From Alphaproteobacteria bacterium (GTDB lineage: Bacteria > Pseudomonadota > Alphaproteobacteria > Caulobacterales > Maricaulaceae), in assembly GCA_024742735.1 (NCBI GenBank), contig JANSXV010000001.1, forward strand, positions 124,001-188,000: DNA of 64,000 nt, given 5' to 3'. How positions within the stretch are numbered: position 1 is the first letter of the stretch; every line of letters starts with the position of its first letter. Under the pieces are notes generated by a model. It saw nothing but the letters and a program-made list of their open reading frames with translations, did no database searches and was not told the DNA's origin. The translations under genes were made by a program, and so were the position numbers. Of the stretch, positions 1,157 through 62,818 are shown one piece after another.

Positions 1157-1171
1157 GTTCCTGTTGCGTTC
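1157..1171 (+). promoter_or_regulatory. LexA operator (SOS box) of recA
   Basis: The sequence GTTCctgttgcGTTC is an exact match to the alphaproteobacterial LexA box GTTC-N7-GTTC. It lies about 75 bp before the recA start and overlaps the -35 element of the proposed promoter, so LexA binding would block recA transcription. Confidence 0.9.
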
Positions 1172-37529: not shown

Positions 37530-38851
37530 CGCAAGCAGCCGCCCAGCAGAGCGCCGGCGGCGCCGGGCCGTTTTCCGGCTTTGAATTCATGCTGGCGATC
37601 CGCTACTTGCGCGCCCGGCGCAAGCAGGGCGGGGTGACGCTGATCTCGGTCATCTCGTTTGTCGGGATCATGCTGGCGGTGACCGCCCTGATCGCGGTGA
37701 TGAGCGTGATGAACGGCTTCCGCCATGAGCTGCTGACCCGTCTGCTCGGCGTTCAGCCCCATGTCTATGTCTACATGCCGGGCGACAGCCCGGTTGCTTC
37801 CGGCGACTTTGCAGACCAGATCCTCGCGCTCGACGATGTGCGCCAGGCCGGCCCGGTCGCCAGCGGCCAGGCTTTGGTGACGGCCGGGCGCAACGCCACC
37901 TTCGCGCAGGTCTCAGGCGTGCGGCCCCAGGACTTCGCCCGCTTTGATCTGATCACCGGCGCCAATGGTGCGCGCGAGGCTGGCGGCGGACTGATCCAGG
38001 GTTCGCTTGAAGGCTTCGGCGAGGGTCGCAATGGCGGCGACCGGATCGTCATCGGCTCGGCCATGGCGGCGACGCTGGGCGTGCGCGCCGGCGACGAGGT
38101 GACGCTGGTCTCACCGCGCGGCGCCTCCACGGTCCTGGGCGTGACGCCCCGGTCCAAGCGCTACACCGTCGCGGGCGTGCTGACCGTGGGCGTGCAGGAC
38201 CTGGATCAGATCCTGGTGTACATGCCGATCGAGCAGGCCGCCCTGTTCTTCAACCGGCCCGAGGACGGCGACTTCATCGATGTGCGCGTGGCTGATCCTG
38301 ATGCGCCGGACGCTGTGAAGGACGCGATCCGCGCCATCGCCCCGGACGGCACGCTGATCCTGGACTGGCGCGGCCAGAACCAGGCCTTCTGGAATGCCTT
38401 GCAGGTCGAGCGGGTCGCCATGCGGCTGATCATGATGATCATCGTGGCCATCGCCGCCATGAACATCATCTCCGGTCTCGTCATGCTGGTGAAGAACAAG
38501 ACCCGCGACATCGCCATTCTGCGCACCATGGGCGCCACGCGCGGGGCCATCACGCGCATCTTCCTGATCGCGGGCGCAGCCGTGGGTGTTCTGGGTACGG
38601 CGGCGGGCATCGTGCTGGGCCTTTTGGTCGTAGCGTTCATCGGCCCGATCCAGGATTTCGTCAGCTTCGTCAGCGGCGTGAACATCTTCGATCCCGAGGT
38701 CTATTCGCTCTATCGCCTGCCGGCGCGGCTGGACTGGGGCGAGGTTGTCTTCGTGGCCTTCTGGGGCTTCTTCACCGCGCTTCTGGCGACCTTGCCGCCC
38801 AGCTGGCGGGCGGGCCGCATCGATCCGGTGGAGGCGCTGCGCTATGAGTGA
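37526..38851 (+). CDS. Lipoprotein-releasing ABC transporter permease (LolC/LolE family)
   Basis: A 441-residue inner-membrane permease that extracts lipoproteins for LolA. The N-terminal [44 protein letters not shown]-type opening (quoted in part by the ORF as [16 protein letters not shown]) is diagnostic, followed by a ~200-residue periplasmic MacB-like domain. Three C-terminal helices contain [20 protein letters not shown] and [10 protein letters not shown], the coupling-helix region. Only one permease gene is present, suggesting a homodimeric LolF-like arrangement rather than LolC plus LolE. GTG start coupled to proS. Confidence 0.93.
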
Positions 38852-39545
38852 ACCGGTCCTGTCCCTGCGCGGCCTGAGCCGCATCTACGAGACCGAGGGC
38901 GAGCGCCTGGTGGTGCTGGACGGCGCGGACTTTGATCTCTTCCCCGGCGAGCTGGTCGGCCTGGTCGGGCCGTCTGGGTCGGGCAAGTCCTCGCTGCTGC
39001 ACGCCGCGGCGCTGCTGGAGAAGCCGACCGCCGGGTCCGTCACGATCGCCGGGCGCGATGCGCTCGCCTTGTCGGAAGCCCAGCGCACGGCCGTGCGGCG
39101 CAGCCAGATCGGCTTTGTCTATCAGTTCCACCATCTCATGCCGGAACTGGACGCTCTGGAGAATGTCGCCCTTCCGCGCCGGATCGCCGGCGCATCGGCG
39201 GCCCAGGCCAGGTCGGACGCGAAAGAGCGGCTGGTTTCGCTGGGCCTTGAAGGGCGCCTGAACCACCGGCCCGGCCAGCTCTCCGGCGGCGAGCAACAGC
39301 GCGTCGCCATCGCGCGGGCGCTTGTGAACCGTCCGGCCATCGTGCTGGCCGACGAGCCCACGGGCAATCTCGATCCGACCACGTCTGATCAGGTGTTCGC
39401 GGCGCTGGAGGCGGCGTGCCGGGAGGCCGGCGCCGCAGCGCTGATCGCGACGCACAACTTCGCGCTCGCCGAGCGCATGGACCGGGTTGTCACACTGAAG
39501 AACGGCGCCATCACGGCATGGGCCGGCGAGACCGAGCCCGCTTGA
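38844..39545 (+). CDS. lolD: Lipoprotein-releasing ABC transporter ATP-binding protein LolD
   Basis: A 233-residue ABC ATPase energising lipoprotein release. Walker A is [15 protein letters not shown], the Q-loop is [20 protein letters not shown] (typical of LolD), the signature is [16 protein letters not shown], Walker B is [13 protein letters not shown] and the H-loop is [14 protein letters not shown]. The ATG at 38844 overlaps the permease stop by eight bases; the ORF-track start lies in the permease gene. The SOS-like control region of the short ORF begins 11 bp after its stop. Confidence 0.97.
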
Positions 39546-39556
39546 GCCGGCTCCAA

Positions 39557-39571
39557 GTTCCTGTTCCGTTT
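39557..39571 (+). promoter_or_regulatory. LexA-like box A before the 30-aa ORF
   Basis: GTTCctgttccGTTT differs from the GTTC-N7-GTTC consensus by one base and shares the spacer ctgtt-c with the recA box (GTTCctgttgcGTTC). It lies about 30 bp upstream of the proposed -35 element. Confidence 0.65.
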
Positions 39572-39599
39572 CAGCTTTCCACAATTGATTCGAAACAGC

Positions 39600-39629
39600 T
39601 TGACGGTGAGAACAAAAGCAGAAAATATG
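39600..39629 (+). promoter_or_regulatory. Promoter of the 30-aa ORF (and possibly dnaE)
   Basis: TTGACG (39600-39605) is followed after 18 bp by AATATG (39624-39629) in an unusually A-rich stretch for this genome. LexA-like box B lies in the spacer and box C at the expected transcription start. The same TTGACG hexamer is the -35 of the lexA promoter. Confidence 0.6.
39610..39624 (+). promoter_or_regulatory. LexA-like box B
   Basis: GAACaaaagcaGAAA matches GAAC-N7-GAAC with one mismatch and is nearly the same as the second lexA box (GAACaaaaccgGAAA). It sits between the -35 and -10 hexamers, a typical repression position. Confidence 0.65.
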
Positions 39630-39634
39630 CAAGG

Positions 39635-39649
39635 GAACAAAACAGGAAT
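39635..39649 (+). promoter_or_regulatory. LexA-like box C
   Basis: GAACaaaacagGAAT, one mismatch from consensus, begins exactly 25 bp after box B. It would cover the transcription start. The half-site aacagGAA is shared with the recA operator read on the opposite strand (GAACgcaacagGAAC). Confidence 0.65.
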
Positions 39650-39685
39650 AAGCGCGCAGGCGCTTGTTCGATAGGGAGAAGTTCC

Positions 39686-39778
39686 ATGCGTGATTTTCTG
39701 CAAGACCTGACCTCCGCCGCCGTCATCCTGGGCTTCATGGGAGTCGCCCTGTCGCTCAGCGCAGCGTTCGCCGGCTGA
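39686..39778 (+). CDS. 30-residue single-span membrane peptide, SidA-like SOS division inhibitor candidate
   Basis: The ORF ([20 protein letters not shown]... ending SAAFAG) has a short charged N-terminus and one hydrophobic span of about 20 residues. The ATG has AGGGAGA eight bases upstream, one of the best ribosome sites in the window. Its promoter carries three one-mismatch LexA boxes. In Caulobacter crescentus, SidA is a 29-residue inner-membrane peptide induced by LexA loss that binds FtsW and delays division; as I recall it also lies next to dnaE. Size, topology, control and position fit, but homology at this length cannot be proved by eye. dnaE follows after 67 bp. Confidence 0.72.
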
Positions 39779-39845: not shown

Positions 39846-42800
39846 ATGGACGCCACGCCCTTCGTGCACCTGCGCGTGCGCTCGCCCTATTCGCTGCTGG
39901 AAGGGGCGATCCGTATCAAGGAGACCGCCGAGCTGTGCAAGGCGCTCTCCATGCCGGCCGCCGCGCTTACGGACACCAATAATCTGTTCGGTGCGCTGGA
40001 GTTTTCCGAGGTGCTGTCAGGCGAGGGCGTGCAGCCCATCATCGGCTGCACGCTGTCGGTCCAGCTGGAGCCGCCGCGCCCTGGGGACCGGTCCTCGCCG
40101 GACGGAACTTTGGTGCTGCTGGCCCAGAACGAGGCCGGTTACGCCAATCTCATGAAGCTGTCCTCAGCGGCCTATCTGGAGGTCGGCGCCACGGACGAGG
40201 CGCACATCTCCATCGAGCGCGCCCTGGAGCACAATGACGGGCTGATTTGCCTGACCGGCGGCCATGACGGCGCGCTCAACCGGCTGGTCTGCGCGGGCCG
40301 GACCGGTCCGGCTGATGCGCTCCTGGACCGGCTGCAGGCCGCCTTTGGCGACCGGCTCTACCTGGAGCTCCAGCGCCATGGCCGCGCCGACGACGTGACG
40401 GCGGAAGACTATCTGATCGATCGCGCTTACGGGCGCGGCCTGCCCATCGTGGCGACGAACGAGCCGCACTTCCCCAGGCCCGAGCTCTACGGCGCCCATG
40501 ACGCCCTGCTGTGCATCGCCGAAGGCGCCTATGTCAGCCAGGAGGACCGGCGCAAGCTGACCCCGGAGCATGACTTCAAGTCCGGCGGAGCCATGGCGGA
40601 GCGCTTCAGCGATCTGCCTGAGGCCATCGAGACGACTTTGGAGATCGCCCAGCGCTGCGCCTTCCGGCCGCGCACGGCTGATCCGATCCTGCCGCGCTTC
40701 CCGACCGCGGGAGACCGGGACGAAGCTGAAGAGCTCGTCGTGCGCGCCCGCGAGGGCCTGGAGGCGCGCCTGGCCAAGGTCGAGGCGGCCGCTCCGCGCG
40801 AGGACTATGAGACTCGGCTGGAATACGAGCTGAAGATCATCAAGGAAATGGGCTTTCCCGGCTATTTCCTGATCGTGTCGGACTTCATCCAGTGGGCGAA
40901 GGCGAACGATATTCCGGTCGGGCCGGGGCGGGGTTCGGGCGCGGGCTCTCTGGTGGCCTGGTCGCTGACCATCACCGATCTGGATCCGCTGCGCTTCGGT
41001 CTGCTGTTCGAGCGCTTCCTCAATCCAGAACGCGTATCCATGCCCGACTTCGACGTGGACTTCTGCCAGGACCGGCGTGGGGAGGTGATCCGCTACGTCA
41101 AGGACCGCTATGGCTCCGACCGCGTGGCCCAGATCATTACGTTCGGCACGCTGCAGGCTCGGGCCGTGGTGCGCGACGTGGGCCGGGTGCTCCAGCTGCC
41201 CTTCGGTCTGGTCGACCGGATCGCCAAGCTGGTTCCGAACAATCCAGCCCAGCCCACGACGCTGGCCGAAGCGGTGAAGATCGAACCGAAGATCGGCCAG
41301 ATGCGCGAGGAGGACCCGCTCGTCGATCGCTTGCTCGAAGTGGCGCTGCAGCTGGAGGGCATGTTCCGCAATGCCTCCACCCACGCTGCGGGCGTGGTGA
41401 TCGGCGACCGGCCTCTGACCGAGCTGGTCCCGCTTTATCAGGACCCGCGCTCCGATCTGCCCGCGACCCAGTTCAACATGAAATGGGTCGAGCCGGCCGG
41501 CCTGGTGAAGTTCGACTTCCTGGGTCTGAAAACTCTCACCGTGATCGCCCGGGCGCTGAACTATATCGAGAGCGCCGGGGAGGAACGGCCCGATCTCGAC
41601 ACGCTGGGCTTTGACGATCCCGCGACCTATGAGCTTCTGTCCTCCGGCGCGTCCATCGGGGTGTTCCAGCTGGAAAGCTCAGGCATGCGCGACACGCTGC
41701 GCAAGCTGAAGCCGGACACGATCGAGGATGTGATCGCGCTGATCTCGCTCTACCGCCCCGGTCCGATGAAGAATATCGACGTCTATGTCGACCGGAAGTT
41801 CGGCAGGGCCGAGCCCGATTACCTGCACCCTGATCTGGAGCCGATCCTGAAGGAGACCTTCGGGGTCATCATCTACCAGGAACAGGTGATGCAGATCGCC
41901 CAGATTCTGTCCGGATACTCGCTGGGTGAAGCCGACTTGCTGCGCCGGGCCATGGGCAAGAAGAAGCCCGAGGAGATGGCCAAGCAGCGCGTCCGCTTCC
42001 AGGAAGGCGCTGAAGAACGCGGCGTGGACAAGGCCAAGGCGTCCTACATTTTCGATCTGGTGGCCGAATTCGCGGGCTACGGCTTCAACAAGTCCCACGC
42101 CGCAGCCTACGCCATGATCGCCTACCAGACCGGCTGGTTGAAGGCGAACCATCCGGTGGCCTTCATGGCCGCTCTGATGAGCCTGGACTCCGCCAACACC
42201 GACAAGCTCGCCGTCTTCTTCCAGGAAGCCCGGCGCATGGGGCTGGAGGTTCTGCCGCCCGACGTGAACGCGTCCGAAGCCGACTTCTCGGTGGAGGAGG
42301 GCAAGATCCGCTATGCGCTCGGCGCGATCCGCAATGTCGGCTTCGCGGCCATGGAGCATGTCGCGTCGGTGCGCCGTGAGGGCGGGCCCTTCAAGGATCT
42401 GTTCGATTTCGCCGAGCGGGTTGATCCGCGCCAGATCAACAAGCGCGCGTTCGAGAACCTGGCCCGGTCCGGCGCCTTCGACAGCCTCGAGCCAGACCGG
42501 GCGCGGGCGCTCGCGGCGGCGGAGACGCTGATCGCCATGGCCCAGAAGGCCGCCGAGGAGCGCGAAAGCGCCCAGGTCTCCCTGTTCGGCGGCCCGGCTG
42601 AAGGCGGTGGATCGGGGCTGGCTCGGCCGACCTTGCCCGATATCGAACCCTGGGACCCGGTGCGGCGCCTCGATGAAGAGCTCGCCGCCGTCGGCTTCTA
42701 CCTGTCCGGCCACCCGCTGGATGAGATGCGCGCCTCGCTCGCCCGGCGCGGCGTGGCGCTGTTCGCAGAGCTGCCCGCCAAGGCGGCGGAGGGCGCGCGG

Positions 42801-43295
42801 GCTGCCCGTCTGGCCGCGGTCGTGCGGCGCAAGCAGGAGAAGGTCTCCCGGCGCTCAGGCGAGAAGTTCGCCTTCGTGACCCTGTCCGATCCGTCCGGCG
42901 AGTTCGAGGCGCTGGTTCCTCCCAAAGTTCTGCGCGAGGTGCGCGAGGTGATGGAGCCGGGCTCGGCGGTCATGATCAACGCGAAGATTGAGGAACAGGA
43001 GGAGGGGCTGCGCCTGATCGTCGACGGGGCCGACCTGATCGATCCGTTTGCGGCCGAGCACGCCGGGGAAGGGCTGAAGATCCATATCTGCGATGTCGCC
43101 GCTCTGGACGGCGTGCGCAAGCGCATGGAGCGCGCCGATGAGCGCGAGGGCGCGCGCGGCGGCGTGCATTTAGTTGTACCGCTCGCCGATGGGCGCATGG
43201 CGGAGATCCGCCTGCCGGGGCGGCACGCCATCGATCCGGCCGCCCGCGCGGCGATAAAGGCGGTGGCCGGGGTGGACGCGGTCGAGCAGCTCTAG
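39846..43295 (+). CDS. dnaE: DNA polymerase III alpha subunit
   Basis: The replicative polymerase, 1149 residues. An N-terminal PHP domain opens [21 protein letters not shown]. The polymerase core has [16 protein letters not shown] and [18 protein letters not shown], the latter with catalytic Asp residues, and a further Asp likely lies near [12 protein letters not shown]. The tandem HhH region and an OB domain ([16 protein letters not shown]) follow, with a tail ending VDAVEQL. This is the DnaE1 type, not the error-prone DnaE2/ImuC, judging from the PHP N-terminus and length. The 67-bp gap to the short ORF means transcripts from the SOS-like promoter could extend into dnaE; no other clear promoter is seen. 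Confidence 0.97.
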
Positions 43296-62077: not shown

Positions 62078-62761
62078 CTAGTGATAGCGCCGGATCAGGC
62101 CGACCAGCTTGCCCTGAACCTTCACTTCGCCGGGGCCGAAGATGCGGGTCTCATAGGCCGGGTTGGCCGCTTCCAGGGCGATGGACCCGCCCTTCTTGCG
62201 CAGGGTCTTCAGCGTGGCTTCCTCGTCGCGCACCAGCGCCACGACAATCTGGCCGTTATCGGCCGTGTCGGAGCGGCGGATGATCACCGTATCGCCATCC
62301 AGAATGCCGGCTTCGATCATGGAGTCGCCGTGGACCTCCAGGGCGAAGTGTTCGCCGCCAGCGACCATGGCGCTGGGCACGCTCAACCGGTCGGTCTCGT
62401 GCTGGATGGCTTCGATCGGCACGCCGGCGGCGATGCGGCCGAGCACCGGCACTTCGATATTGCGCTCCTCACCTGACGCCTGGGACCGTCCGAAGGACGC
62501 CTCGACCACGTTCGAGCCCACTTCGGCGGGCGCGGCGGGTTGGGACCCGCCGGGCATTTTCAGGACTTCCAGAGCCCGGGCCCTATGAGCGAGCCGGCGG
62601 ATGAAGCCGCGCTCCTCCAGCGCGCTGACCAGCCGGTGAACGCCGGACTTCGACGCCAGACCCAGCGCCTCCTTCATTTCATCGAAGGACGGGGAGACGC
62701 CGTCTTCCGACAGGCGCTTGTTGATGAACAGCAAAAGTTCGTGCTGCTTCCTGGTGAGCAT
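62078..62761 (-). CDS. lexA: LexA repressor
   Basis: The SOS regulator, 227 residues. The N-terminal winged helix ([20 protein letters not shown], then [20 protein letters not shown]) binds the boxes. The C-terminal S24 peptidase domain has the Ala112-Gly113 cleavage site in [11 protein letters not shown], the catalytic Ser147 in [10 protein letters not shown] and Lys185 in EATLKTLRK. Activated RecA stimulates self-cleavage. The gene has its own promoter with two LexA boxes, so it is autoregulated, and it starts 81 bp after trpC. Confidence 0.98.
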
Positions 62762-62778: not shown

Positions 62779-62793
62779 GAACAAAACCGGAAA
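62779..62793 (-). promoter_or_regulatory. LexA box 2 of lexA
   Basis: Plus-strand GAACaaaaccgGAAA matches GAAC-N7-GAAC with one mismatch. It lies just inside the transcribed leader, exactly 25 bp from box 1, and is almost the same as LexA-like box B at 39610. Confidence 0.7.
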
Positions 62794-62803
62794 CTGTACC
62801 GGT

Positions 62804-62818
62804 GTTCTATAACTGTTC
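62804..62818 (-). promoter_or_regulatory. LexA box 1 of lexA
   Basis: GTTCtataactGTTC (GAACagttataGAAC on the coding strand) is an exact operator overlapping the -10 hexamer of the lexA promoter. Confidence 0.9.

Follow-up and report, generated by a model that had tools for sequence, protein, structure and literature searches.

A 30-codon open reading frame (ORF) in the gap between a lolD-like gene and dnaE of a bacterium of the Maricaulaceae (Alphaproteobacteria; Caulobacterales) is likely to encode a LexA-controlled, divergent homologue and probable orthologue of the division inhibitor SidA, part of an old lolD-sidA-dnaE locus and serving SOS arrest of the late divisome. The gene lies in a stretch of 64,000 nucleotides (GenBank assembly GCA_024742735.1, contig JANSXV010000001.1, positions 124,001 to 188,000), hereafter called the window. 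SidA of Caulobacter, a peptide of 29 residues in the inner membrane, is controlled by LexA and acts on FtsW (PMC4211646, PMC12700426), in agreement with the facts on length, membrane, FtsW and LexA that an initial annotation of this DNA had given. Its gene is CCNA_02004 (PMC11034885), and Caulobacter dnaE is CC1926 (PMC1839093).

The locus is composed of the following elements, in window coordinates:
38844..39545, plus strand: lolD-like ABC transporter ATPase, the upstream syntenic neighbour (named from sequence; start inferred)
39557..39571, plus strand: third LexA-like box, GTTCCTGTTCCGTTT, the weakest of three (one mismatch)
39600..39605, plus strand: -35 element TTGACG (TTGAC in every aligned genus member)
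39610..39624, minus strand: LexA box 1, GAACAAAAGCAGAAA on the plus strand, in the promoter spacer and overlapping the -10 (one mismatch; conserved in the genus alignment)
39624..39629, plus strand: -10 element AATATG (sequence; genus promoter alignment)
39635..39649, minus strand: LexA box 2, GAACAAAACAGGAAT on the plus strand, at the expected transcription start (one mismatch; 25 bp from box 1)
39650..39665, plus strand: hairpin AAGCGC-GCAG-GCGCTT directly after LexA box 2, in the presumed 5'UTR
39673..39679, plus strand: Shine-Dalgarno sequence AGGGAGA, just 5' of the sidA-like ATG (sequence)
39686..39778, plus strand: sidA-like ORF, 30 aa (sequence, conservation, pN/pS, HMM rank)
39846..43295, plus strand: dnaE, DNA polymerase III alpha, the downstream neighbour (TIGR00594, 1200.8 bits)

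Direct reading of the sequence gives the ORF an ATG start, 30 codons and a TGA stop, 67 bp before dnaE, and hydropathy analysis finds a single hydrophobic span in the peptide; the ORF, its AGGGAGA site and the one span are all as the initial annotation had described them. All three one-mismatch LexA boxes that it placed on a TTGACG/AATATG promoter are present as well. The spacer between the two promoter elements is 18 nt, and a generic sigma-70 scan gave no score to this promoter. Boxes were sought with the pattern GTTCN7GTTC, allowing one mismatch, and 50 such matches were observed in the window against 37.9 expected, so a lone one-mismatch box is weak evidence and the weight rests on clustering and conservation. 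In this respect the boxes differed: those at 39610 and 39635 keep a fixed 25-bp spacing throughout the genus and in some sister genera, but the box at 39557 varies in position among relatives and was ruled out as a member of a conserved triple. Since box 1 falls within the spacer and reaches the -10, and box 2 lies at the expected start site, LexA bound at both would be expected to block RNA polymerase. The hairpin that follows box 2 recurs in most genus members with different bases that still pair (AAGCGC/GCGCTT, AGCTGC/GCAGCT and GCCGC/GCGGC are examples of its stem); as loop lengths differ, it was assessed by a shuffle test of stem length, in which individual P values were modest.

The same genome carries a LexA regulon with which these operators can be compared. 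Perfect GTTCN7GTTC boxes precede recA, lexA, ssb/uvrA and imuA, and the relevant elements in the window are:
1157..1171, plus strand: perfect LexA box upstream of recA, which starts at 1244 (pattern match)
62078..62761, minus strand: lexA (TIGR00498, 185.1 bits)
62779..62818, minus strand: lexA promoter boxes, imperfect at 62779-62793 (GAACAAAACCGGAAA on the plus strand) and perfect at 62804-62818

The two lexA promoter boxes show the 25-bp spacing seen at the sidA-like ORF. Because lexA's own imperfect box has the matching form and the pair the same spacing, the imperfect boxes at the sidA-like ORF are likely to be genuine operators. Elsewhere in this genome, a perfect box, GTTCTTTCTCTGTTC, lies about 160 bp upstream of mraZ (L204:737, G000:C26:48936-48950), where the division and cell wall cluster begins, and may represent a second link between SOS and division. 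Another perfect, AT-rich box, GTTCTTGTATTGTTC, immediately precedes a PA0069-family radical SAM gene (L209:767, G000:C30:852266-852280), which we regard as a candidate member of the LexA regulon.

In Caulobacteraceae (f3), a single-span ORF of 28-31 aa and its LexA boxes precede dnaE in 136 of 136 loci, a set that includes some overlap between samples and of which 80 carry organism titles. The SidA model NF033228, with a curated cut-off of 35 bits, scored 72.7 bits on the Caulobacter vibrioides OR37 ORF and 65.6 bits on one from Phenylobacterium; its matches in these and other genera fall in the gap before dnaE, and in genomes of the order they coincide with that gap wherever both were mapped. 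Because the matches fall at that place, the gene directly before dnaE in Caulobacteraceae is, by sequence, SidA. Among 299 genomes of the order, matches above the cut-off occurred only in Caulobacteraceae, and of the 14 control genomes Caulobacter vibrioides alone gave a match. Two Caulobacter genomes (L113, L114) start the SidA ORF with GTG instead of ATG. One Caulobacteraceae genome has a weaker second match below the cut-off (28.5 bits) away from dnaE, at G050:C3:315102-315185, possibly a SidA paralogue.

The arrangement is retained in the window's own family (f1), where the dnaE start could be read in 36 genomes and 34 of these carry, in the lolD-dnaE gap, a single-span ORF of 30-31 aa with at least one box upstream; the lolD-like neighbour is also visible upstream in some relatives. 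Of the two exceptions, one (L013) has different upstream DNA, and the other (L028) has a LexA box directly before dnaE and no ORF. Inspection of this gap in relatives, which had been proposed as a check, thus recovered both the ORF and the two boxes 25 bp apart. Comparison of 14 genus members confirmed that the sequence evolves as coding DNA in the annotated frame only: pN/pS was 0.37 in that frame, against 1.07 and 2.48 in the two alternatives, and differences per site at codon positions 1, 2 and 3 were 0.28, 0.12 and 0.50. The peptide and boxes also stand before dnaE in 5/6 and 6/6 genomes of two sister families, and a SidA-like peptide is absent from 6/6 genomes of a further family of the order (f2). 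Outside the order, a LexA box, a SidA-like peptide and dnaE occur together in 7 of about 42 alphaproteobacterial families, counting those with a readable dnaE start among the loci examined. In these seven (L232, L236, L237, L248, L253, L275 and L280) a perfect LexA box, a single-span ORF of 33-47 aa and dnaE follow one another in that order, and in L237 a lolD-like gene lies directly upstream. The peptide is present in 27/30 genomes of the order to which L232 belongs (for example ...GWLKDIAALASITAFIFTAVTWVEIAKGLMG), many of them with two boxes 25-26 bp apart; the lone ORFs outside that order were chosen by rule (hydrophobic, near a box) and are individually candidates.

Homology of the window peptide to SidA was recovered through intermediates and by permutation, but not by direct search. 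NF033228 matched neither the ORF nor anything else in its genome, and since the 35-bit level was not reached the ORF is not filed as an NF033228 equivalog; an HMM of Caulobacteraceae SidA alone likewise gave no match to it, and Pfam and NCBIfam returned nothing useful for the peptide, a weak TAT-signal match falling below its own cut-off. The Caulobacteraceae HMM did find the peptides of the L232 order, at E values down to 3.5e-8, with 18 of 20 outranking all 1593 decoys (reading segments of the window), and the reverse HMM, built from those peptides, placed 101 SidA sequences above its first decoy; by these sequence measures the peptides of the L232 order are secure SidA homologues. An HMM lacking any f1 sequence found other f1 genera at 1.5e-7, but it does not single out the window ORF. 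When only the window genus was withheld from the HMM of all SidA-like peptides, the window ORF ranked first of 1593 (E 2e-4; the next at 0.48). In an ungapped column-permutation test, which preserves hydrophobic composition, SidA resembled the f1 peptides with P 3e-4, offset 0 being the best of 13, and the subset like the window genus with P 0.003. We accordingly place the ORF in a wider SidA-like family, defined here by homology, which it shows through intermediates, and by a position directly upstream of dnaE; LexA operators of the GTTCN7GTTC type at the promoter and a length of about 29 residues with one span are further features of SidA found here. Taken together, the intermediate HMMs, the shared locus and the shared operators make the window ORF a probable SidA orthologue, and the proposal of a SidA counterpart outside Caulobacter is supported by synteny before dnaE, LexA operators and homology through intermediates.

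Another reading is that the peptide acts on the membrane itself, in the manner of TisB and DinQ. TisB is a toxin under antisense RNA control. DinQ is an SOS peptide of the same kind in E. coli (PMC3567139). A peptide of this type would depolarise or damage the inner membrane and slow growth without binding the divisome, and the small size, the one helix and the control by LexA would suit it just as well; we nevertheless judge it unlikely, because the window peptide shares both sequence homology and locus with SidA, and no antisense RNA partner was seen, though not by a systematic search.

The proximity of dnaE raises another question, namely whether the ORF serves its neighbour. On the plus strand no terminator was found in the 67-bp gap, so the transcript may continue into dnaE. 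In L028 (G016) and L050 (G059) a perfect LexA box lies directly before dnaE with no SidA-like ORF, so LexA may control dnaE itself in these two genomes; the missing terminator and these peptide-less boxes suggest that LexA may also influence dnaE. The short distance, the recurring 5'UTR hairpin and the ORF-less box of L028 would all suit a translated leader that tunes dnaE by attenuation or translational coupling and whose peptide does little. Conservation at the amino-acid level, homology to SidA, which is a working inhibitor, and the much larger distance to dnaE in other lineages make this very improbable. A chance ORF with chance boxes, for which the abundance of one-mismatch matches in the window might speak, is already refuted by conservation across the family and beyond, by pN/pS and by SidA homology.

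We favour a SidA-type checkpoint and propose the following model. As long as the DNA is undamaged, LexA bound to the two promoter-overlapping operators would keep the sidA-like gene off, as the boxes and their layout suggest. Upon DNA damage, RecA would trigger LexA cleavage and the 30-residue peptide would be made and would enter the inner membrane as a single helix; there, by analogy with Caulobacter SidA, it would hold the late divisome (FtsW/FtsI/FtsN) inactive so that septation waits for repair, while the transcript may run on into dnaE. Division arrest through FtsW is thus predicted for the window peptide by homology. Two FtsW residues, F145 and A246, are mutated in SidA-resistant Caulobacter (PMC4211646), and the window genome has F and A there, as do the remaining f1, f3 and f4 genomes that were checked (positions are counted on the assumption that FtsW of a Caulobacter genome begins MATQTTHAF, and RodA and FtsW were told apart by sequence). 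Position 145 is L in both f2 genomes examined, which have no sidA-like gene; F145 fails as a marker of SidA presence, as L also occurs in one sister-family (f5) genome that has a SidA-like gene, and we take the conservation of the two residues as no more than suggestive of a SidA target. A 2026 AlphaFold 3 study placed SidA on FtsW TM7 with low confidence (PMC13396833).

The distribution of the locus suggests that SOS checkpoints of the SidA type, tied to dnaE, extend much further than the literature on Caulobacter would lead one to expect. Tentatively, and with more doubt than conviction, we raise the broader possibility that SidA is the standard SOS division checkpoint in a large part of the Alphaproteobacteria, forming one LexA-controlled unit with dnaE that couples arrest to polymerase supply, and that it was overlooked outside Caulobacter because of its small size. 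NF033228 recognises the Caulobacteraceae branch only, so other branches are probably unannotated. The open-licence literature yielded no report of a SidA-like gene with LexA boxes before dnaE across alphaproteobacterial orders, and what was found there mentions SidA as a Caulobacter inhibitor only. Division stop after DNA damage in alphaproteobacteria is known mainly from Caulobacter; the conserved succession of lolD, LexA boxes, sidA-like gene and dnaE provides a ready test list across many genera and points to the peptide positions that may be in contact with the divisome. It also raises the possibility, open to experiment, that a division checkpoint and the replicative polymerase are linked.

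Among known systems, YneA of Bacillus, SosA of Staphylococcus, ChiZ of Mycobacterium and DivS of Corynebacterium are likewise small membrane proteins that are induced by SOS and inhibit late division, and all four proteins are longer than the SidA-like peptide. One study (PMC13396833) classes SidA together with YneA, ChiZ and SosA as inhibitors directed at FtsW, and yneA, divS, chiZ and sidA are unrelated genes (PMC4211646). Caulobacter DidA is also a small, single-helix, damage-induced division inhibitor (PMC4211646), but it has 71 aa, is SOS-independent (DriD) and binds FtsN. DinQ and TisB of E. coli are SOS-controlled small inner-membrane peptides as well, with no sequence or locus link to the window peptide seen; DinQ is a toxin with antisense RNA control (PMC3567139). 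From Caulobacter SidA itself the window peptide differs in lacking both W19 and M20, in having two imperfect boxes spaced by 25 bp, whereas spacings of 15-18 bp prevail in Caulobacteraceae, and in escaping NF033228, which detects Caulobacter SidA; its function is a prediction. The two have in common the place directly before dnaE, a length of 29-31 aa with a single helix, a promoter carrying LexA boxes, and an ungapped pattern with an acidic residue at position 7, a small residue at 16 and F at 17.
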